Shown: piece by piece, positions 2,125-46,459 of the stretch
Position numbering within the stretch: position 1 is the first letter of the stretch
Layout: each line of letters begins with the position of its first letter
Virus record (IMG/VR): IMGVR_UViG_3300005530_000032
Coordinates: 1 to 53,394 of that record
Strand: one strand, 5' to 3'
Length of the DNA stretch: 53,394 bases
Origin: a virus
Notes under the pieces: generated by a model
The model's database searches: none
What the model saw: only the letters and a program-made list of their open reading frames with translations
What the model was told of the DNA's origin: nothing
Program-made: the position numbers and the translations under genes

Positions 2125-3227
2125 CAGGTCACCGGCCCCAACGAGATACCGATCTTCTCGCCGTTCGCGTCGTGCGAGCCGGACACCCGCACAAGCTGAA
2201 GATCTTCGGGCACGAACGTGCAGAAATACCCGGATCCGGCGATCCGGACCACCGAGCCGCAGATCAGGTCGGATACCGCCACGGTTGCCCCCGGCGAGAG
2301 CTGCGCGCCGTCCGCCACCCGCAGAACCCGGGGCTTGCGCGCGCCGAAGTAAACCGCCTGAGCGGCCGCCAGCACCGAGCTCGTGCCGTTCGCGCCGGCC
2401 GTCGAGGACACCGAGGCCTCGATCCGGCCGCGCCAGTCCGTGTCTTCCGGGGCGCCGAGCACGACGAGCTGCGGATCGTCCGGCGGCACCTGGCCGGCCG
2501 CCACGCCGGCGGCAGCGTTGCCCGATGTCCCGTAGACGGTGTTCGCGTACACGGTCGCGTCGTGCACCATGGTCACGTTCCCCGCGATGTCCGACACGCT
2601 CAGGTTGATCGGCGCCCCGAACGCGGCGCCGTTCATCCCGCCGAGGTACAGCGACCGGACCACGGTTGTGAACCGCAGCCCCGAGGCGACCAGCGCGGTG
2701 AGCTCGGCAAGGATGGAGTTCGAGGCGCGTGCGGCCGCCCTCGACGCCCGCACGCCGGCCTCGGTGACCACCATGCCGAGGCCGATCCCGGGGTCGTCCG
2801 TGGCCAGGTCGGCACCGATCACCGTGGCGGCGATGTCCACCACGTCGCCGGTGAGGTTGTAGCCGGCCTGCAACTGGTGCCGGTCGAGGTATTCGCACAC
2901 GTCGAGGGCGGTCAGTTGCACCTGCTGCGTGCTCGGCCCGACCGTCTCGGTGAGCGTGGTGATCGGCCCGCACCACACCTCGTCGCTGTCGCGGTAGATG
3001 CTCAACTCGTAGGCGCCCTGAGCCTCATCTTGCGCCAAGGTGTTCAGCAGCCGGCAGCACTGTGTGGACACCGGCCCCTGAGCGAGGGTGACGGTGGCCG
3101 CGCCGGGGGCGTTCATCTTGCGGTCCCACGCCACCGAGGTGACGCCGTCGAGCTCGCCGAGCGGCCGGCCGCCGCCGCGGTAGGTGACCAGAGAGGTATA
3201 GGTGCCCGCACAGCCGAGAGTCGCCAT
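2124..3227 (-). CDS. Minor tail protein, Gp37-like (tail hub/baseplate)
   Basis: 367 residues. The N-terminal half has the pattern of siphovirus ReqiPepy6 Gp37-like tail proteins: a Trp-containing strand (VAWDRKMNAPG), then DEVWCGPITTLTE, TALDVCEYLDRH and a region rich in Ala and Val. These proteins usually form part of the tail-tip hub next to the distal tail protein. It ends ATGA-overlapped with the next small gene and starts 6 nt after the preceding gene, so it is co-translated in the tail operon downstream of the tape measure gene, the position expected for the family. Confidence 0.75.
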   Translation of the reverse strand: MATLGCAGTYTSLVTYRGGGRPLGELDGVTSVAWDRKMNAPGAATVTLAQGPVSTQCCRLLNTLAQDEAQGAYELSIYRDSDEVWCGPITTLTETVGPSTQQVQLTALDVCEYLDRHQLQAGYNLTGDVVDIAATVIGADLATDDPGIGLGMVVTEAGVRASRAAARASNSILAELTALVASGLRFTTVVRSLYLGGMNGAAFGAPINLSVSDIAGNVTMVHDATVYANTVYGTSGNAAAGVAAGQVPPDDPQLVVLGAPEDTDWRGRIEASVSSTAGANGTSSVLAAAQAVYFGARKPRVLRVADGAQLSPGATVAVSDLICGSVVRIAGSGYFCTFVPEDLQLVRVSGSHDANGEKIGISLGPVT

Positions 3228-3233
3228 CGCCGA

Positions 3234-4610
3234 TCACCACACGTCGTCTCGGACGGCGATCGACACCGAGGCCCACGCGTCCGAACCCACGTTGTCGGCG
3301 TCCGCGGTCACGGCCACGCACCAGGCATCCGAGCAGCCGAGCACCGGCCACTTGGCCATCGGGCCGTCCGAGGTGTAGAGCACCGGCGTCTCGGTGCGCC
3401 CATCGGCGCACGTGACCATCGCGACCTGCTGCCGCCCATCGACCAGCAGCGTCGCACCGGCCGGCAGGTACGGAATCCCGATCTCGCCGGCGACGTCGCA
3501 GGTGCCGAGGTTCGCGTAGGTGCACACCTCGCCTGCGCTGGCCCGGTAGAACCGCAGCAGGATCCGCCTCATGTCCTTGATCACACCGGCGCTCACCTGA
3601 AGGATCGGCACGAACGCCCCCGTCCTCGGCAGCGTGCCGCCCGGGATGTTCGTCATCGTGGTGACCGGGTTCATGCTGATCACGCACAGACACGGGTCGT
3701 TCGGCCGCGCCGGCGGCGTCGGCGGCACCGGCACCGGGCACAGCGGGTCGTTCAGCAGGCAGTCGCCGTCGTCCGTGCTGCACGGGTCGGCACAGCTCGG
3801 GTCCGTGGCCGGCGTCCACGTCATGCACGCGCCGTAGACGTTCGTCGAGCAGTCCGGCAGCGTGCACATCCCGGACCCGGGCGTATGGCTCTGCCACGTC
3901 ACGCACGGCCACAGCGTCGGCACGGCGAACGGCACCCGCGTGGCCACCACGATCGGATCCTGATACGCGAACGGCAGCCCGGCGCCGAGCAGGAAATCGG
4001 TGTCCCACATCCACGGCCGGCCTCGGCCGCACGACTGCCCGATCTGCACCTTGTTCGTGTTCTCAGGGCCCTGCAACAGCGCCGACTGAAACAGGCTGCG
4101 GTTCGCCGCCACGCACGCCGCCGCATCGTCGGTACAGCTCGGGCACCACGCCTTGACGTTGATCGCCACGCCCGTGCACGGCGCGCCGCACGCCGGGATG
4201 CCCGAGCCGGCCTGTAGCACCGAGGACAGCCACGATTGCCCCCACGACATGCCCTGCTCGCTCAGGGCGAACCCCATCGCGTGTACGTTCAGCTCGCGTT
4301 GAGCGTGTTTCATCTGGCCGATCACCGCGCCGTCGCCGACCTTGGCCAGCGGCGCGCGCGAGCCGGTCGCCGCGGTGACGCCGCCGACCGTGATCCCGAA
4401 GAAGCCGAGGAAGTCTTTCGACCACGGCACGGCCGGATCGACCCACGGGGCGCCATCGGTGACCGGGTCGTAGTAGGGGCCGGCGGCCGCGCCCTGGCAC
4501 TGCTTGCAGGCGATGACGACCGCGAAACCGTAGTTGTTGACGTAGCTCGCCGTGCGCACCGAGTTGACGACCTCGGTGCCGTTGAACGCCATGTAACCGT
4601 CGTAACCCAT
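3234..4610 (-). CDS. Cysteine-rich distal tail-like minor tail protein
   Basis: 458 residues, starting MGYDGYMAFNG at ATG 4610-4608, which overlaps the tape-measure stop as ATGA; the longer frame extends only into that gene. Immediately following the tape measure gene is the usual place for a distal tail protein, and the N-terminus (FNGTEVVNSVRTASY) fits that class. It is unusual in having about 23 cysteines, many in CxxC-like pairs (CKQC, CPSC) and a run of Cys-rich loops in the middle, suggesting metal binding or disulfides in the mature tail tip. The assignment rests mainly on gene order. Confidence 0.65.
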   Translation of the reverse strand: MGYDGYMAFNGTEVVNSVRTASYVNNYGFAVVIACKQCQGAAAGPYYDPVTDGAPWVDPAVPWSKDFLGFFGITVGGVTAATGSRAPLAKVGDGAVIGQMKHAQRELNVHAMGFALSEQGMSWGQSWLSSVLQAGSGIPACGAPCTGVAINVKAWCPSCTDDAAACVAANRSLFQSALLQGPENTNKVQIGQSCGRGRPWMWDTDFLLGAGLPFAYQDPIVVATRVPFAVPTLWPCVTWQSHTPGSGMCTLPDCSTNVYGACMTWTPATDPSCADPCSTDDGDCLLNDPLCPVPVPPTPPARPNDPCLCVISMNPVTTMTNIPGGTLPRTGAFVPILQVSAGVIKDMRRILLRFYRASAGEVCTYANLGTCDVAGEIGIPYLPAGATLLVDGRQQVAMVTCADGRTETPVLYTSDGPMAKWPVLGCSDAWCVAVTADADNVGSDAWASVSIAVRDDVW

Positions 4611-38693: not shown

Positions 38694-39527
38694 GTGGCCT
38701 ATTCAAAAGCGACGCTCGCCATTGATCCGCCCGGAACGAAAGTCCGGGAAGATGCGATCCGGGCATCTTCGCACGACGGTAAGTGGTTTCTGCGGGTTCA
38801 TGTGACCGATGCCGCCCGAGGGATTGCGGTTCGGTCCAATGAGGACAACCGGGCTCGTAACGTCGTGACCGATGCCGTTGCCAGCATCGGGAACCACGGC
38901 CCGCAGGTGTACCCCGCCTCGCTACTGAACGCGCTGGCGCTCGGGCCTCGCGACCATACCCGGGTGATCGCTGTGTCGGCCGCCTACACCCTCGACGGCG
39001 ACGGCGCCGGTGTGGTGCTGTCCGCCCAGGAACTCGGCGGCATGTACGTGGTGGACTATCGCCAGGCCGAGCTAGCGTTGCACCAGCACATCGCGGGGGC
39101 CTGGCACAAGATTCTGATCGCCGCATCCGATCTGGCGCATATGCTGCGGCGCCGTTGGGGCGTGGCCGAGGGCGGCCCGGAAACCGTGGCCGACATTGTC
39201 ACCGACATGATGCGGGCGGCGAATGCCGCCGCCGGGTCGTGGGCGGTGGAAAACGGCGTTCCGCTGCTGTTCCTCAACCGTTCCGGCGCGGCCTGCGAAT
39301 CCTCGCGCCTGTCGGTCACGCCGGTCGGGCACGACACGGTGGGCGGCGCGCCGTACGCGCGAGTGACGTCGCCGCTACGGCGCTACGACGACCTGATCAA
39401 CCAGCGCAGCATCACGGCGCACCTGGCCGGACGGCCCGCGCCGTACTCACTCCAAGAGCTGAATGACCTTGCCGCGGCGATGAACCGCGCCCACCGGCCC
39501 GGCGTCGTGAGGGGGCCGGCCACCTAG
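38694..39527 (+). CDS. Stand-alone RNase II-type (RNB) domain protein
   Basis: 277 residues from GTG 38694, with GAGATGAG upstream and a possible -10 TATCGT at 38,650. The whole protein follows the RNB fold: AIDPPGTKVREDAI, WFLRVHVTDAARGI, MMRAANAAAGSWAVE, and the hallmark YARVTSPLRRYDDLINQRSI. The RNA-binding OB domains of RNase II/R are absent. The catalytic DxDD acidic cluster is partly changed (KVREDAI for the usual KDLDDAV), while the first Asp (AIDP) and the SPLRRYDD Arg are kept. It may be an altered 3'-5' exoribonuclease or an inactive RNA-binding derivative. Convergent with the terminase gene, overlapping 4 nt. Confidence 0.8.
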   Translation: MAYSKATLAIDPPGTKVREDAIRASSHDGKWFLRVHVTDAARGIAVRSNEDNRARNVVTDAVASIGNHGPQVYPASLLNALALGPRDHTRVIAVSAAYTLDGDGAGVVLSAQELGGMYVVDYRQAELALHQHIAGAWHKILIAASDLAHMLRRRWGVAEGGPETVADIVTDMMRAANAAAGSWAVENGVPLLFLNRSGAACESSRLSVTPVGHDTVGGAPYARVTSPLRRYDDLINQRSITAHLAGRPAPYSLQELNDLAAAMNRAHRPGVVRGPAT

Positions 39528-41164
39528 CGGCGGATACCGGGTCCCCCGGCCGAGCCGGGCGGCTGGTCGCGGTTGATCCGGACGCCGGCGGTGCGGTTCG
39601 TCGAGCGGCTGACGTTGCGCATGTCGGTGTCGGCGGGCGACGTGGTGGGCTTGCCGGTGGCGGGCGGTCTGAGCAGGTCGTAGGCGAGCCACACCATGGC
39701 GTCGATGCGGCCGGGGGATTCCTGGCCGGGCTGGTAGGTCGCCCACTCGTGCTCGACCATGGGCAGGTATTTGGCGAACCTGATCCGGTCTTCGATGACC
39801 ATCTGCGCGACCGGTTCGGCGCGCATCAGCTTGTTGCCCATGTCGGCGGCGCGCTTGGGGACCAGGCGCGGGCAGAACCCCGCGTAGGGGTTCGGCTTGG
39901 TCGAGCGTTCGGCCTCGGGCAGCTCGGCCTGTTCGGCGTCCCACTCGCGCTGTAGGGCGTCCCACGCGGTGCGGATCATGTTCGGGCCCATGCGGGCGCC
40001 GAAGTCGGTTTCGACGACGAACCGTTTCGCGCCGATGCGGGCGGCGAGCTCGCACGCCTTGCGGGGCCAGACGTCCACCGCCATGACGGCCGTCTCGTCG
40101 TCGGTGACGTACAGCCGGCCATCGGTGCCGGTGAACCCGCCGATGATGCCGCAGGTGTCCTCGCCGCCGCCCGAGGGGTCCACCGCGACGGCGGTGACGG
40201 TGCGGGCCGGCAGGTCGGTGAGGTGCCGGCGCTCGCGCAGCATCTCGGCGGTGAGCAACGCGCCCTCAAGGGGCTGCGGGTCGCACATGTACATCGCGAA
40301 CCAGTCGCGAAGCGTCTTGCCGACTCTTTGATCTTCCCAGTGTTTGTGCAGCGCGGCGACGTCGGCCGGGTCGATCTTGGGGTGGGTCAGCGGCTCGCCG
40401 ACCTTGCGGCCGAGCACGTCAGCGTCGCTGGTGGCGTAGGCCGGGCACTTGAGCACGAGCCAGCGGCCGCCGGTCGCCCGGTCGCCCTCTTGTGCGATGA
40501 CGTGCGCCCCGATGTCTTGGGGGTGCCACAGCGTCATGATCAGGAACACCGGCGTCGTCGGCGACAGTCGCGTCATGACCGAGCTCGACCAGAATTCCTC
40601 GACGGCCCGCCGGACGGTCTTGGACTCGGCCTGTTTCCGGTTCTTCACGAGGTCGTCGGCAAAGATCACGCCGGCGTCGTAGCCGGTGATACCGCCATCG
40701 ACGCCGGCGCAGCGCATGCCGCCGCCGGTCGTCAGCTCGAAGTCGTCGGCGGCCTGTGCCCCGCGTTCGAGGTGCAGACCGAACCGGGCCCCGTGCTCGC
40801 GGATCAGCTTGCGCACCGCGCGGCCTCGGCGGGTGGCCAGCGAGGCGGCGTAGCTGGCCACGATGACGCGCTGGTCGGGGTGGTGCACCAGCCACCAGAA
40901 AGCCCCCCACACCGCGGCCGCGGTGGACTTGCCGACCTGTGGCGGCGTGGTGATCAGCACCCGATCGACCTGGCCGCGGTCGGCCGCGACGACCGCCTTG
41001 CTGATCAACTCCGAGTGCGGGCGCGTCTGATACTTCGGGTCCAGTCGGCGCGCGAGGTTCGCCGGCGACTTGCACGCCGCGAGGTCGCGGGCGCGCTCGA
41101 TCGCGACGTCGGTCGCCACGCCCCCGGGCAGCGCGGCGGGCGGTTCGGCAGGACGGTGCAGCAT
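39524..41164 (-). CDS. terL: Terminase large subunit
   Basis: 546 residues from ATG 41164-41162; the frame extends upstream only as a shadow. Walker A TPPQVGKS (~73-80), Walker B VIFADDL (~166-172), coupling motif TLWHPQD (~211-217). The C-terminal nuclease has VAVDPSGGG (D329) and VETDFGARMGP. It pumps DNA into the capsid through the portal and cuts the concatemer. It ends the operon that starts with ParB and the modification enzymes, and is 15.7 kb from the portal gene, an unusual separation. Confidence 0.95.
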   Translation of the reverse strand: MLHRPAEPPAALPGGVATDVAIERARDLAACKSPANLARRLDPKYQTRPHSELISKAVVAADRGQVDRVLITTPPQVGKSTAAAVWGAFWWLVHHPDQRVIVASYAASLATRRGRAVRKLIREHGARFGLHLERGAQAADDFELTTGGGMRCAGVDGGITGYDAGVIFADDLVKNRKQAESKTVRRAVEEFWSSSVMTRLSPTTPVFLIMTLWHPQDIGAHVIAQEGDRATGGRWLVLKCPAYATSDADVLGRKVGEPLTHPKIDPADVAALHKHWEDQRVGKTLRDWFAMYMCDPQPLEGALLTAEMLRERRHLTDLPARTVTAVAVDPSGGGEDTCGIIGGFTGTDGRLYVTDDETAVMAVDVWPRKACELAARIGAKRFVVETDFGARMGPNMIRTAWDALQREWDAEQAELPEAERSTKPNPYAGFCPRLVPKRAADMGNKLMRAEPVAQMVIEDRIRFAKYLPMVEHEWATYQPGQESPGRIDAMVWLAYDLLRPPATGKPTTSPADTDMRNVSRSTNRTAGVRINRDQPPGSAGGPGIRR

Positions 41165-41178
41165 GGTGCGGGGCCGGG

Positions 41179-41817
41179 CTACAGCTCGCGCTGAGCCGGG
41201 ATCGCCAGCAACGCCGCCAGGTCGTCCTCGTCGGCGGTGATGATCTCGCCGGCGGCCATCCTCTCGCCGACGCCGCGCAGCAGTGCACCGAGCTCGGCCT
41301 GACGCTCGGCCGGCGTCATGCCCGAGATCGGCTTGAACGCCGGCGCGGCCGCCTCGGCGCGGGTGATGGTGACGCGGTGGTCGGGCTCGCCGAACGGCGA
41401 CCGGCCGAGCTGGTTCGCCGTCGCGGCCCACTTGGCGACCTCGCCCGCGGTCATGTCGGCGAGCTTTTCGAGGGTCATCGTGTTCAGGAACTGCGCGGCC
41501 CAGTGCAGCATCCCGCGCGCGACGAGCACTTTCTGAGCTTCGAGCCTCACGAACTCATCCATCAGCCGGTAGTCGCGCTGACGGGCGTCGTCGAGGTCTT
41601 TCGCGCCGGCCCGAACCGACCAGTTCCACTTGGACGAGAGCCGGTAGAGGTACTGCGTCGTTTTTCTGACCTTTTCTGCCAAATCCTTGATCTTCCGGCC
41701 CTTGCCGAGGGCGCAGAACTCGACGAAGTACCCGTAGGCGTTCGCCGGCTCGCCGGGGTACCGTTCCCAGATCTCAGGCCCTAGTTGATCTTCGAGTTCG
41801 GCATACACCGCGGTCAT
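41179..41817 (-). CDS. terS: Terminase small subunit candidate
   Basis: 212 residues from ATG 41817-41815, overlapping the dioxygenase stop as ATGA. WERYPGEPANAYGYFVEFCA followed by KIKDLAEKVRKTTQYLYRLS and WNWSVRAGAKDL is the helix-turn-helix region of many small terminases (DNA recognition at the pac/cos site); the centre is helical (QFLNTMTLEKLADMTAGEV), suited to ring assembly. Located immediately before the large subunit. Confidence 0.8.
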   Translation of the reverse strand: MTAVYAELEDQLGPEIWERYPGEPANAYGYFVEFCALGKGRKIKDLAEKVRKTTQYLYRLSSKWNWSVRAGAKDLDDARQRDYRLMDEFVRLEAQKVLVARGMLHWAAQFLNTMTLEKLADMTAGEVAKWAATANQLGRSPFGEPDHRVTITRAEAAAPAFKPISGMTPAERQAELGALLRGVGERMAAGEIITADEDDLAALLAIPAQREL

Positions 41818-42776
41818 GACGTCGCCCCCTTGCTCGTCGGCGTCTTGGGCTTCTCCGGTGGCGGCGGGTTCGCGTTGCGCCGGTCGAGGATCGCCTGACC
41901 CCTGCGCAGTTCCTCGGCCGGCGACCCGCACGCGGCGACCTTGGTCCGGAAGTAGGCGACCACGCTGATCCGCTCGGCGCCGCACCCCTTGCACGGGCCC
42001 CACAGCCGCACCCCGCACGCGCACGTCATCGGCGTGTTCGCGTGCCACTCGTGCGCGTCCATCAGGATCAGGTCGCCGTCGTGCATGTCCACCCCGATCC
42101 GGTACTCGGGGAACAGCAGCACCCCGCCGTCGTACTCGCCGCGCCGGTGCACCGCGATCGTCGAGAAACCCGCTTCGAGGTCGCCCCGGTCGGTGTGCAC
42201 ACCGGTGCTGTATGAGTTGTTCACGGTCACGGTCGTGAACGGCGTGCCCGGCACCACCCACGCCGGGTCAGCGGCATCGGCGTAGGCCTGCTGCGCGGCG
42301 GCGCGCGCCGGCACGTGCTCGTGCAACCGCTCGGCCACCGCGCGCAGCAGCGGGTGCAGCGTCTGCCACTGCGGCAGGTTCCGGCCGGTCCACGCGGTCA
42401 GCCGGCAGAACACCTTGCCGGGCGGTCCCTCGTACACGCCGATCACCGAGCTGGCGACCTGCGCCGACTTCCGGCGCTTGGCGTTGTTCGGGTACATGAT
42501 CGACACGGTGCCGCTGGCCATCCCGCGGTTGTTCGTCAGCACCTTGGACAGCGCGGCCAGCACCTCATAGACCTCGGGCGTGAACTGGCCGGCCAGCGCG
42601 CCGGGCAGGTACACGCACAGCGGCGTGCCGTCCGGTTTGAACACGGCGGCTGGCCCGGTCAGCAGCGCGTGCACGTAGGCGGCCGCGGGCACCTTGCCGA
42701 CCATCAGCGCGAGCTCGTCGGGCGAGGTGCGGGTGCGCACCCGCAGCTCGATCAGGCCGGCCGCCGCGGTCGTCAT
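41814..42776 (-). CDS. JBP/TET-like 2-oxoglutarate/Fe(II) dioxygenase (DNA base oxidation)
   Basis: 320 residues from ATG 42776-42774, overlapping the kinase stop. The double-stranded beta-helix core is at ~180-280: VNNSYSTGVHTDRGDLEAGF with HxD at H194/D196, EYDGGVLLFPEYRIGV, HDGDLILMDAHEWHANTPM with the distal His at H245 (or H242), and ERISVVAYFR supplying a 2-oxoglutarate-binding Arg. A CxC...CxxC cluster (C252, C254, C262, C265) is inserted between the distal His and the Arg and may bind zinc. The family hydroxylates the 5-methyl group of thymine (JBP) or 5-methylcytosine (TET) in DNA. Its base preference cannot be told here. Confidence 0.85.
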   Translation of the reverse strand: MTTAAAGLIELRVRTRTSPDELALMVGKVPAAAYVHALLTGPAAVFKPDGTPLCVYLPGALAGQFTPEVYEVLAALSKVLTNNRGMASGTVSIMYPNNAKRRKSAQVASSVIGVYEGPPGKVFCRLTAWTGRNLPQWQTLHPLLRAVAERLHEHVPARAAAQQAYADAADPAWVVPGTPFTTVTVNNSYSTGVHTDRGDLEAGFSTIAVHRRGEYDGGVLLFPEYRIGVDMHDGDLILMDAHEWHANTPMTCACGVRLWGPCKGCGAERISVVAYFRTKVAACGSPAEELRRGQAILDRRNANPPPPEKPKTPTSKGATS

Positions 42777-43342
42777 CGCAATGTCTCCAGTTCAGGCACG
42801 AGGTAGCGCACTTGATCGGCCAGGACGCCCGGGGGCTGACTGGCGTCGAGCCTGGTCGCGCCGACCGCCTCGGCGGTCCGGGCCGCGCGGGTCGTCGCGC
42901 CGGCCACCCACGACGGGTTCTGCGACCCCGGGCGGCCGGCCCGCCGGTCGGCGATCACCGCCGGGGCGGCGACCAGGTGGAACACGCGCAGCCGGTAGCC
43001 GGCGAACTGCGCCGCGCCGAGGAACTGGACCGTCCCGAGGCGCGCGCCCTCGGCGAGCACCAGGCCGTAGGGGACGCCCATGATCCACGCCATCGCGCGC
43101 GGGTGAATGTTCATCGCCGTCGCGTCCGTGCCCGAGAACGAGGTGCGGGTGCGGCCGATCTCGGCGCCGACCGTGTTGGGGCCGAGCGCGGGCATCGTCT
43201 TGATCAGCAGTTCGTGCGGCACGCTGACGCCGGCGACCGGGCGCCGCTCGCAGCGGGCCGTCAGCCGCCGCATGAGCGTGGACTTTCCGACGCCGGGCGC
43301 GCCGAGCAGGTAGACCAGCAGCGGCAGCGGTGGCGGCCTCAT
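42773..43342 (-). CDS. P-loop kinase, candidate hydroxymethyl-pyrimidine DNA kinase
   Basis: 189 residues from ATG 43342-43340 (MRPPPLPLLVYLLGAPGVGK); the longer frame is a shadow of the PLP gene. Walker A GAPGVGKST at 14-22. Further motifs FSGTDATAMNIHPRAM, LVLAEGARLGTVQF and RAGRPGSQNPSWVAG recur in small kinases next to amino acid:DNA transferases in phages. In characterised hypermodification pathways a kinase phosphorylates 5-hydroxymethyluracil in DNA, activating it for substitution. Genes on both sides overlap by start/stop codons. Confidence 0.75.
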   Translation of the reverse strand: MRPPPLPLLVYLLGAPGVGKSTLMRRLTARCERRPVAGVSVPHELLIKTMPALGPNTVGAEIGRTRTSFSGTDATAMNIHPRAMAWIMGVPYGLVLAEGARLGTVQFLGAAQFAGYRLRVFHLVAAPAVIADRRAGRPGSQNPSWVAGATTRAARTAEAVGATRLDASQPPGVLADQVRYLVPELETLR

Positions 43343-44271
43343 GCCCGCCCCCCGGTGCCGGCCGCGTTCCCCGACCGGCGGCGGCCGGCGCGCGCCGTCT
43401 GGCCGGCCAGCGGGCCGCCGACGATCCACAGGCACGTCGTGTCGTCGCGCCGTTCCCACCAGGCGGGGCGGTGCTGGTTCAGGTAGCGGATCACCTTGCC
43501 CTCGTAGGTGGGGTGCGCGTCGATGCCGTCGAGGGTTTCGGGCATCTTGTCGGCGTAGGCGGCGAACCCGGTGCCGTGCAGGTCGATGTGCTCGACCGGC
43601 ACCGGCACCCGCGCGTGCAGCCACGCCAGCCGATCGGTGAGCCAGGGCCGGCGGTCCGGGCCGATGCCCATCAGCACGATCCGTTCGAGGTCGGCCGGGG
43701 CCCGCACAGAGATGCCGAGCAGCACGCCGGCGGCGGTGTTCCCGGACCCGAACGGCACGATCAGGGTCCGCACCGAGGGCGGCAGGTTCGCCACCTGTTT
43801 CGCCGTGGTCGCGTGGAAGTCGGACACCTCATCCCGGCTGGCGTTCGGGGGCGGTGTGATGCCGTACCGCAGCCAGTAGGCCCCGGGCCGCTCGTCGGCC
43901 AGCCGCGACGCACGCTGCTGTAGATACGGGTTGTAGCCGACCGGCACGTGATGCAGGCGCGCGCCGTACTCCACCGCGATCCGGATGCTGGGATGGCGCA
44001 TCGCCGCGTGGTCGGTCGTGGCGCCGAGGATGACGGTGGCCGGCAGTCCGTGCGCGGCCGCGACGACGGCGGCCATCGCCGACTGTGGGGAGTGGACCGA
44101 GGCGGCCGAGATCACCTCGGTGGCGCCGGCGGCGGCCGCGCAGCCGATGAGGTGCTGACAGGCTCGCAGCTTGGACCCGTTGACGACGCCGCCGGCGGTG
44201 TGCAGGTCTTCGCGCTTGAACAGGCGGCCGCCGCGCGACTCGACCGGGGTCAGGGTGGTGGGCGCGGGCAC
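43339..44271 (-). CDS. Fold-type II PLP enzyme (ACC deaminase/D-cysteine desulfhydrase-like)
   Basis: 310 residues from GTG 44271-44269, 9 nt after AGGAGG. LFKREDLHTAGGVVNGSKLR gives the Schiff-base Lys (K34); ISAASVHSPQSAMAAVVAAA and VPFGSGNTAAGVLLG are the phosphate- and cofactor-binding loops of the tryptophan synthase beta superfamily. Free-living homologues act on amino acids. Here it overlaps the kinase gene and follows the amino acid:DNA transferase, so it probably alters the amino acid joined to the base, or makes the amino substrate. That substrate is inferred. Confidence 0.75.
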   Translation of the reverse strand: MPAPTTLTPVESRGGRLFKREDLHTAGGVVNGSKLRACQHLIGCAAAAGATEVISAASVHSPQSAMAAVVAAAHGLPATVILGATTDHAAMRHPSIRIAVEYGARLHHVPVGYNPYLQQRASRLADERPGAYWLRYGITPPPNASRDEVSDFHATTAKQVANLPPSVRTLIVPFGSGNTAAGVLLGISVRAPADLERIVLMGIGPDRRPWLTDRLAWLHARVPVPVEHIDLHGTGFAAYADKMPETLDGIDAHPTYEGKVIRYLNQHRPAWWERRDDTTCLWIVGGPLAGQTARAGRRRSGNAAGTGGRA

Positions 44272-44273
44272 GG

Positions 44274-45389
44274 CTACCGCCTCCTGATCCCGTACTCGCC
44301 GGCGGTGACCCCTCGCTCGAATCCGCCGGCGAAGCACGGCCAGTCGCGGTGCATCATCGGCGGGATGCCGTGGTCAAGGTAGTAGTTCTGTTTGACCGGC
44401 ACGCACCCCGGGTCGGTGGGGTTGTCCTCAAGTCGCAGGTGTGCCGGCAGCACGTCGCGGCGGACGTCCCACAGCAGCCCGAACCGGTCGCCGAAACGCG
44501 CCTCGGCGTGCCGGATCCGGTCGTACAGCAGGTCGTTGTAGACGTTCGGATAGCGGCGGTTGCGCCGGTGCCAGCTCTTATACGTGCACAGCGCCGACTC
44601 AAGCGTGAGGTAGGACACGTCGGGGTGGCCGATGCGGGCGCGCGCCTCGGCGAGCAGCCCGCGGCCGAACCGGTCGAGGGTGTCGAGGACCGCGCGGGGG
44701 TACTGCCCGCCGAACCCCCTGTTCCGGTCCCACCAGATCCACTCGTCCATGCACGCCACGAGCGCCAGGCCGTTGCGGTGGGACTTGGACCCCTCGCGGT
44801 CGTTCAGCATCAGGTCGTCGGCGTCGGGCACCGGCGCGACGTCGAGGATCCTGACGTATTCCAGATACGACCACGTGGACAGCCGGCCGAGGTGCGGCAG
44901 CGCCGAGGCGGCCCGCCAGGCGTCGCCCCATTCCGAGGTCTTGCCGCGCCACCATGCGGCCGGGCCGCCGGCCGCCTCGACGAGTTCGAGCCATCGGCGG
45001 GTGGACCGGTCGAAACTGCCTTTCTGGTGACGGCGGTCGGTATCCCACGCCAGGTCACCGAACCGTGCGCGCCAGAACGCGAACATGGCGTCGGCGCCGC
45101 GGTGGCTGTTGCCGCTGGCGTCCATCAGCAGCATCGTCGTCACCGGGTTCTGCGTGTTCCCGTTGATCCACGCCGCCCACGCCCGTTGATCGGCGTCCCA
45201 CCCGCCGGCGCGCGCCAGCGCGGGCAGCGCGTAGTAGACGCCGCCGGGGTGCGAGCGGTGGTGCAGGTGGAAGGCGTAGAACCGCATGAACACCTCGCGC
45301 CGGTGTTCCGAGGCCCGGAAGTCGCGCACGCCGTCGAGGGGGTCGTGCGGCGGGCCGGCGTCGGGGGTGGCGGGTGGGGTGAGCATCAT
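44274..45389 (-). CDS. Amino acid:DNA transferase (aGPT-Pplase/ADDT family)
   Basis: 371 residues; ATG 45389-45387 overlaps the ParB stop (a second ATG follows at once). Characteristic features: REVFMRFYAFHLHHRSHPGG, VYYALPALA, WINGNTQNPVTT (76-84), LAWDTDRRHQKGSFDRST and LTLESALCTYKSWHRRNRRY. Members of this DNA-glycosylase-related family displace the phosphate of a phosphorylated hydroxymethyl-pyrimidine in DNA and join an amino group (alpha-glutamyl, putrescinyl or glycyl in known phages). With the adjacent kinase, dioxygenase and PLP genes it defines a DNA hypermodification operon. Confidence 0.85.
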   Translation of the reverse strand: MMLTPPATPDAGPPHDPLDGVRDFRASEHRREVFMRFYAFHLHHRSHPGGVYYALPALARAGGWDADQRAWAAWINGNTQNPVTTMLLMDASGNSHRGADAMFAFWRARFGDLAWDTDRRHQKGSFDRSTRRWLELVEAAGGPAAWWRGKTSEWGDAWRAASALPHLGRLSTWSYLEYVRILDVAPVPDADDLMLNDREGSKSHRNGLALVACMDEWIWWDRNRGFGGQYPRAVLDTLDRFGRGLLAEARARIGHPDVSYLTLESALCTYKSWHRRNRRYPNVYNDLLYDRIRHAEARFGDRFGLLWDVRRDVLPAHLRLEDNPTDPGCVPVKQNYYLDHGIPPMMHRDWPCFAGGFERGVTAGEYGIRRR

Positions 45390-46459
45390 CGGTCGGCGCC
45401 GCCGTCCTGCCGCGGGATCATCCGCTCGTCGAGGGGTTCGGCGTCCTCGGGGTCGCACCGCATGCACGGGCACAGCTCGGGGTGCTCGGCGTCCTCGGGC
45501 TGTCCGGCGGCGTCGGCGATGATCGCGGCCACGAGGGCGCCGGTGGTGTACTCGCCGGGCATCCGGCGCCGCAGCGTGCCGAGGTGGGCCATCATGTCGG
45601 CGTGGTCGCCGAGCGGCAGCACCAAGATCAGTTCGCGTAGTCCCTCGACGTTGCCGCCGCGGGTGTTGTACTGCCCGATCAGCTCGCCGCGTTCGGCCTG
45701 CTCCTCGGGCGTCTCGTTGTAGGCGGCCTGCACCTGCTCGGGCTCGGCCGGCGGCGGCATGACCGGCAGCGCGTCGAACTGCTCGGCCAGCGACTCGAAA
45801 TCGTCCATGTCCCAACCGGTGCCGACGAACACCGAGGGCGTGCCGGCCTCGGCTTCCAGCGCGCGCAGCAGCTTGAACGTGGCTTCCTCGTCGTCGTGGC
45901 CGAGGCGCGTCGTGCGGTTCAGCGCGAGCAGCATGCGCTTTGCGGTGAGGTCGTCCACGTCGTAGAAGATCACCGGGATGCGCTCGGCGCCTTTGTCGCG
46001 GTACACCTCCCACGAGTGGTTCCCGCCGATGATGTGGCCGGTCGAGCGCTGCACGATCACCGGGTCGAAGAAACCGAACTCGTCGATCGAGGCCCTGATC
46101 GATGCCTTGTCGCCGACGTTGTTGTTCTCCGGGTGCCGGCTGATCGAGTCGATCGGCACGAGCTCGACGGCGATCTCGTCGTCACGGATCCGCTGGTCGG
46201 GGCCGAGCAGTTGATCGACGGCGGCCAGGCGGCCGGGGTGGCTGCCGGGATCGCGCGGGACGGTGAGGTACTGCTCGGGCGGTTCGTCGAGGGCGGCGGC
46301 GTCCTCCAACGCGCCGTCGTCGTCGAACTCGTCGAGGTCGTCGCCGGCGCTGTCGTCGAGGTCGTCGGTGCCGTCGTCCTCGGCTGTCTCGGCGTCGAGT
46401 GGCTGCTCCAAGCCCGTCAGGTCAGTTTCTGCCCTATTCCTATTGATTCGTGGTGTCAT
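45386..46459 (-). CDS. ParB-like nuclease-fold protein
   Basis: 357 residues from ATG 46459-46457. An acidic disordered N-terminus (~1-60) precedes the ParB N-terminal-like domain at ~95-200: VELVPIDSISRHPENNN, IRASIDEFGFFDPVIVQRST, HIIGGNHSWEVYRDKG, RMLLALNRTT. No helix-turn-helix centromere-binding domain or partner ParA is present, so it is not a partition protein. ParB-like domains recur in phage base-modification operons and may guide or couple modification to DNA; some have nuclease or NTPase activity. First gene of the operon, leaderless. Confidence 0.8.
   Translation of the reverse strand: MTPRINRNRAETDLTGLEQPLDAETAEDDGTDDLDDSAGDDLDEFDDDGALEDAAALDEPPEQYLTVPRDPGSHPGRLAAVDQLLGPDQRIRDDEIAVELVPIDSISRHPENNNVGDKASIRASIDEFGFFDPVIVQRSTGHIIGGNHSWEVYRDKGAERIPVIFYDVDDLTAKRMLLALNRTTRLGHDDEEATFKLLRALEAEAGTPSVFVGTGWDMDDFESLAEQFDALPVMPPPAEPEQVQAAYNETPEEQAERGELIGQYNTRGGNVEGLRELILVLPLGDHADMMAHLGTLRRRMPGEYTTGALVAAIIADAAGQPEDAEHPELCPCMRCDPEDAEPLDERMIPRQDGGADR

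Follow-up and report, generated by a model that had tools for sequence, protein, structure and literature searches.

The window analysed here, 53,394 bases long, is the whole IMG/VR virus record IMGVR_UViG_3300005530_000032, which has a GC content of 71% and is linear in IMG/VR; a completeness value is absent for the record, and the genome may be incomplete. On its minus strand, from position 46459 down to 41814, lie five genes that form a predicted DNA base hypermodification operon and encode, in this order, a ParB-like protein, an amino acid:DNA transferase (ADDT), a fold-type II pyridoxal phosphate (PLP) enzyme, a P-loop kinase and a TET/JBP dioxygenase. The earlier note on this DNA, made from the sequence alone, had placed the same genes in the same order with short overlaps, and all are present. 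The spacing consists of three 4-base overlaps (ParB-like/ADDT, PLP/kinase and kinase/TET) and one 2-base gap between the ADDT and PLP genes, the latter starting with GTG and having AGGAGG upstream. The proposed identities also hold, with four of the five proteins exceeding the curated Pfam cut-off and the ParB-like protein falling below it yet being clear in PHROGs. A chance grouping is excluded, as dozens of further virus contigs also carry these families side by side.

The last gene of the five (41814–42776) encodes a 320-residue 2-oxoglutarate (2OG) Fe(II) dioxygenase that matches Tet_JBP (PF12851) with 54.4 bits (cut-off 34.9). The iron triad of the HxD...H type (His194, Asp196 and His245) and the 2OG-binding Arg269, together with Asn186 and Tyr275, are invariant in 67 members. 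The predicted structure, with a predicted local distance difference test value (pLDDT) of 90, displays a TET-type fold, and its top PDB matches are CcTet, NgTet1, TET2 and CMD1, with E-values of 1e-10 to 1e-12 (Foldseek). The enzyme thus has the double-stranded beta-helix, the iron triad and the 2OG-binding Arg expected of the TET/JBP family, and shares a common fold and the HxD...H...R active site with TET2, NgTet1, CcTet and, by family, trypanosome JBP, although it is only 11–15% identical to the solved TET-type members. Searched as a single sequence, it matched in the PDB only tyrosine decarboxylase, by chance (E = 0.1); profile and fold searches show the TET type. Three residues beyond the HxD motif the window TET has an Asp, whereas the TETs of mycobacteriophage JAMaL and Rhodococcus phage Tonitrus are of the HxDxxN type; in NgTet1 the residue at this position, likewise an Asp, contacts the amino group of 5-methylcytosine (5mC). 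The Asp/Asn difference was considered as a mark of base specificity and rejected, since both types co-occur with ADDT. A CxCG...CxxCG insertion at residues 250–266 (about 41979–42029), between the distal ligand His245 and Arg269, is confined to the TET of the window and those most closely related to it, and is missing from the other members; it is a possible zinc knuckle.

The ADDT (44274–45389; 371 residues) is of the aGPT-Pplase2 type, and matches PF18724 with 43 bits (cut-off 26.2) and phrog_3271 with an E-value of 3e-77. Its single sequence gave no match to PDB sequences, and profile and fold searches were needed. The model (pLDDT 93) has only two convincing PDB neighbours, 8z2m and 8z2n, with a Foldseek probability of 1.00, E-values of 0.008–0.024 and template modelling (TM) scores by target of 0.58–0.65; both are the 5-phosphomethyl-deoxyuridine (5-PmdU) glycinyltransferase gp46/PUGT of phage PaMx11. 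The ADDT profile finds Vi01_199 of phage ViI (E = 1e-44), and gp51 of phage M6 belongs to the same Pfam family (160 bits). Profile and structure comparisons, which the earlier note had listed among its checks, place the TET and the ADDT in the expected families and not in unrelated ones.

The kinase (42773–43342; 189 residues) matches Ploopntkinase3 (PF18751) with 104.7 bits (cut-off 27) and has the Walker A motif GAPGVGKS; Gly14, Gly19, Lys20, Asp73 and Gly99 are invariant in 73 members. Its gene is a neighbour of the ADDT gene in most loci, and the enzyme is predicted, by analogy, to be a 5-hydroxymethyluracil DNA kinase. Such kinases are labelled 'terminase small subunit' by phrog_800 and several GenBank records, apparently from gene position; examples are the window kinase, JAMaL gene 4 (locus L001 of our comparison, 2834–3460) and M6 gp54 (L086, 41685–42248). 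The window has a separate small terminase gene (phrog_6299) at 41179–41817 besides the kinase.

The PLP enzyme (43339–44271; 310 residues) matches PALP (PF00291) with 59.7 bits (cut-off 35), and its closest PDB sequence is 1-aminocyclopropane-1-carboxylate (ACC) deaminase (E = 2e-7). Lys34, invariant in the alignment of 25 family members, is likely the Schiff-base lysine. A profile of the family finds Vi01_182 of ViI (E = 3e-96) and M6 gp52 (E = 5.5e-9). The protein is a probable tailoring enzyme, for which decarboxylation would be the most likely reaction. In several close relatives an extra conserved protein (PQPGDIGLT...WIVEAMPGGA...ICSQL) is encoded between the PLP and kinase genes (L019, 12297–12833; L041, 12342–12884; L024, 7264–7779; L022, 5510–6211; L031, 11798–12634). 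Two of these proteins were scanned and had no Pfam match; judged by eye, its sequence is reminiscent of a permuted NlpC/P60-type fold, and it may add another tailoring step. The locus of Mycobacterium phage AlanGrant (L087, 1–3152) puts these components to another use: after gene 1, which weakly matches a DNA methylase family (N6_N4_Mtase), come a PLP enzyme sharing 49% identity with that of the window and a kinase, and the AlanGrant record gave no match to ADDT.

The first gene (45386–46459) encodes the ParB-like protein of 357 residues, which matches phrog_723 (E = 4e-31) and also phrog_498, a DNA methyltransferase family containing ParB; its match to ParB_N (PF02195) reaches 21.1 bits, below the cut-off of 26.3. 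A PADLOC scan returned only a Type II methyltransferase N-terminal match at residues 99–205 of this protein and a weak match of the kinase. The ParB-like protein is a probable DNA-binding or nucleoside triphosphate-dependent targeting subunit.

In known viral pathways 5-hydroxymethyluracil usually arises through a hydroxymethylase of the thymidylate synthase (TS) fold acting on deoxyuridine monophosphate (dUMP). The earlier note had seen no such enzyme, and a search of the whole 53,394-base record with PF00303 gave no match. We compared 50 records, of which 47 are IMG/VR records matched by the window ADDT, JAMaL and Glutamicibacter phage Montesquieu were matched likewise, and Tonitrus was taken from the literature; most are fragments, and whole records were searched. 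TET is present in 42 records and a TS-fold enzyme in seven, while none has both and one has neither (Fisher p = 8e-8, uncorrected for shared ancestry). Nor is a TS-fold enzyme found in any of 50 further TET records; several of the 42 records with TET and ADDT exceed 75 kb. The HMUDK_hel protein (PF18723, the type of M6 gp55) occurs in exactly the eight records that lack TET, which are the seven TS-fold records plus the single record without either enzyme (L002, L014, L016, L048, L081, L083 and L085 are examples), and the same search gave no match in the window. The PLP gene occurs in TET-fed and TS-fed operons alike, which says only that its product acts separately from the first step.

In the tree of ADDT sequences, a single clade for the TS-bearing rows was rejected (approximately unbiased test, p = 8e-7), and the fewest possible changes between the TET and TS states number three. 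The largest of the TS groups, with Montesquieu among its members, adjoins the window inside a clade of otherwise TET-bearing operons; support (UFBoot/SH-aLRT) is 100/99 for this 24-row clade and 87/89 for the window with the TS group. A first quick tree had included very long rows (L003), and the tree rebuilt without them gave the same count of changes. Most simply, TET and the TS-fold enzyme would be interchangeable ways of supplying one and the same intermediate, and from their mutual exclusion and repeated exchange it would follow that TET repeatedly replaces the dUMP hydroxymethylase. HMUDK_hel, for its part, may restore thymine from hydroxymethyluracil, a possible function needed by the nucleotide-level route only.

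The nature of the intermediate is indicated by the TS-fold partners. An Asn at the position of E. coli residue 177 marks dUMP enzymes, and an Asp marks those acting on deoxycytidine monophosphate (dCMP) (PMC8670742). All partners with a readable motif have Asn at this site and PCN at the catalytic cysteine, like M6 gp58; the motif was not read for L038, a truncated sequence, or for Vi01_060, which lies outside the motif pattern. The CMP hydroxymethylase MilA, the closest PDB entry of one partner, has Asp at this site, and an assignment of the partners as dCMP hydroxymethylases was rejected on the specificity residue. Because the enzymes exchanged with TET carry the dUMP-type Asn, the shared intermediate is likely 5-hydroxymethyluracil, and the substrate of TET likely thymine rather than 5mC. 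New here are the mutual exclusion, the finding that it arose more than once, and the case for thymine made from the specificity residue.

We consider it probable that the operon serves post-replicative thymine hypermodification, with TET replacing the usual first enzyme of the known viral pathway. The ParB-like protein would bind phage DNA and direct the enzymes; TET would hydroxylate the methyl group of thymine in DNA to give 5-hydroxymethyluracil, which the kinase would convert to 5-phosphomethyluracil; ADDT would then exchange the phosphate for a free amino acid; and the PLP enzyme would tailor this amino acid once it is attached, most likely decarboxylating it to an amine. The end effect would be virion DNA shielded from host nucleases. 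The genes, operon structure, families, folds, catalytic residues and exchange of TET with the dUMP-type hydroxymethylase across relatives are observed; every catalytic step, the choice of amino acid, the sequence specificity and any protection of the virion DNA are inferred. The order of oxidation, phosphorylation, amino acid substitution and PLP tailoring that the earlier note had proposed gains strength from the mutual exclusion of TET and the dUMP-type enzyme. With somewhat less confidence, we favour the more general proposition that phage TET hydroxylates thymine in the polymer to feed the kinase, transferase and PLP enzyme, and that, on several occasions, this route and the nucleotide-level one (dUMP hydroxymethylase with HMUDK_hel) have taken each other's place.

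The nearest characterized systems are those of ViI and M6. ViI-type phages carry 5-(2-aminoethoxy)methyl-dU (5-NeOmdU) and M6 carries 5-(2-aminoethyl)-dU (5-NedU), both derived from 5-hydroxymethyldeoxyuridine (5-hmdU) through its phosphorylation in DNA (PMC6449724; PMC11721090). The genes of M6 are arranged as ADDT (gp51), PLP (gp52), gp53, kinase (gp54, PF18748), HMUDK_hel (gp55, PF18723) and TS fold (gp58), so that ADDT-PLP-gp53-kinase in M6 parallels ADDT-PLP-kinase-TET in the window. Both phages have homologues of ADDT and the PLP enzyme, with the P-loop kinase close by in M6. The downstream ADDT and PLP enzymes are therefore common, whereas the entry step differs: in ViI and M6, 5-hmdU is made at the nucleotide level by a TS-fold hydroxymethylase and no TET is reported, and M6 has the HMUDK_hel that is missing from the window. 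Lacking a PF00303 enzyme, the window is a variant, not a plain member, of the M6/ViI type of thymidine hypermodification.

The earlier note had regarded this chemistry as a distinct branch. In the sense of previously unseen, this does not stand, as sets of ParB, TET, ADDT and kinase are already found in Tonitrus and JAMaL. Tonitrus (PP978825) has a five-gene thymidine hypermodification system published in 2025 (PMC11955845). Like the window, it has the ParB-like, TET-like, aGPT-Pplase2/ADDT and P-loop kinase genes together and no PF00303 enzyme or HMUDK_hel; it differs in having no PLP gene found, another gene order and a distant ADDT, and is likewise known from genes alone. In JAMaL (Coopervirus, KF493881), the ParB, TET, ADDT and kinase genes are consecutive and lead up to the terminase, at one end of the genome. 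Its ADDT is 56% identical to that of the window, but TET sits between ParB and ADDT and a PLP gene is missing. The clustering of these four genes without a TS-fold hydroxymethylase, typical of Tonitrus and JAMaL, is also found in the window. Montesquieu resembles the window in ADDT (47% identity), PLP enzyme (40%) and adjoining P-loop kinases, but has two kinases and, instead of TET, a TS-fold hydroxymethylase and HMUDK_hel. The gene set has thus been seen before, and the pathway is a variant of the M6/ViI kind. Iyer et al. 2013 reportedly connected phage TET/JBP enzymes with genes of this kind. The same work is cited in PMC6449724 as the origin of bioinformatic predictions of these clusters.

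Several points weigh against the proposed pathway. In all phages of this type it is known from genes alone, and the targeting role of the ParB-like protein is a guess. The window kinase belongs to PF18751 and that of M6 to PF18748, so its substrate is assigned by analogy. Only about three independent exchanges between TET and TS-fold enzymes underlie the argument, and a hydroxymethylase may lie outside a record that is possibly incomplete. Finally, phage TETs assayed to date oxidize 5mC (Burke 2021, as cited in PMC11404850), and 5mC made by the host could be the substrate.

An alternative that we regard as somewhat doubtful concerns the PLP enzyme, which might make or supply a free non-standard amino acid for ADDT instead of tailoring it on DNA. 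Its nearest solved relative, ACC deaminase, acts on a free amino acid. By contrast, the enzyme is homologous to the ViI and M6 PLP proteins, which Lee et al. 2021 reportedly showed to be decarboxylases acting on the DNA-bound amino acid. The PLP gene is missing from several TET-ADDT-kinase loci, Tonitrus and JAMaL among them, an absence that either role allows.

The operon runs on unbroken into the terminase genes, a continuation absent from the earlier note. These genes, also on the minus strand and outside the pathway, encode a small subunit (41179–41817; phrog_6299, E = 2e-15), whose gene overlaps that of TET by 4 bases (ATG over the TET stop codon) and is translationally coupled to the dioxygenase, and a large subunit (39524–41164; phrog_38, E = 1e-76; PF03237, 39 bits). 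This linkage, together with a JAMaL kinase that abuts the large terminase gene and a ParB-like protein that suggests sequence-directed action, would fit an operon that modifies particular sites, for the sake of packaging or gene control, and does not protect the DNA in bulk, the terminase coupling being functional. The genes lie apart from the terminase in Tonitrus and Montesquieu, so the linkage is not general, and we consider this explanation unlikely.

Still less probable is that TET oxidizes 5mC, from the host or from a missing phage C5-methyltransferase, and that the hydroxymethylcytosine so formed is what the kinase, ADDT and PLP enzyme modify. Besides the activity of the assayed phage TETs, the Asp retained three residues past HxD speaks for it. 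A search for cytosine C5-methyltransferases (PF00145), which the earlier note had suggested, gave no match in the 53,394-base record, and the family was found in only three of the 42 TET and ADDT records and in one of the 50 further TET records (4 of 92 overall). A supply of 5mC by the phage was rejected on this search, the window and nearly all relatives being negative. Moreover, this alternative leaves unexplained the exchange of TET with enzymes carrying the dUMP-type Asn, and the downstream enzymes are homologous to those of phages with modified thymine. Of the 'thymine or 5mC' of the earlier note, thymine is thus favoured, since TET replaces dUMP-type enzymes and C5-methyltransferases are rare among TET records, and 5mC is downweighted. 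That a dUMP hydroxymethylase lies outside the record and TET has another function, for instance a later oxidation, is very improbable: the record is linear and without a completeness value, and no replication genes were recognized among its scanned proteins, but none of the 92 TET records has a TS-fold enzyme.

If thymine is oxidized in the polymer, a phage TET that feeds amino acid hypermodification would parallel the synthesis of base J. A single operon would then suffice to make aminoalkyl-thymine DNA within the polymer, while the phage TETs shown so far use 5mC; only chosen thymines would be modified, with none needing restoration. The exclusion between TET and the pair of dUMP hydroxymethylase and HMUDK_hel also provides a handle on the role of HMUDK_hel, which should be needed only where hydroxymethyluracil first replaces thymine. 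The cultured relatives Tonitrus and JAMaL make the pathway directly testable.

The rest of the record consists largely of portal, major head, tail, tape-measure and endolysin genes, and the virus is therefore a tailed phage. It has a high GC content and is probably actinobacterial. One of only two matches among genome contigs, RGDC01000007.1 from an Actinomycetota metagenome-assembled genome (L169), carries ParB, TET, ADDT, PLP and kinase genes together; this gene set is compatible with an actinobacterial host or a prophage.

Many TET loci, most of them with ParB, are without ADDT and kinase (L118, L119, L131, L133, L136, L137, L139, L145, L151, L164, L168 and others). Of 31 such records, 13 have a TET-associated glycosyltransferase (PF20691, two below the cut-off), and no C5-methyltransferase or TS-fold enzyme was found with it. 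The TET-glycosyltransferase loci may make glycosylated hydroxymethyluracil, a putative phage analogue of base J.

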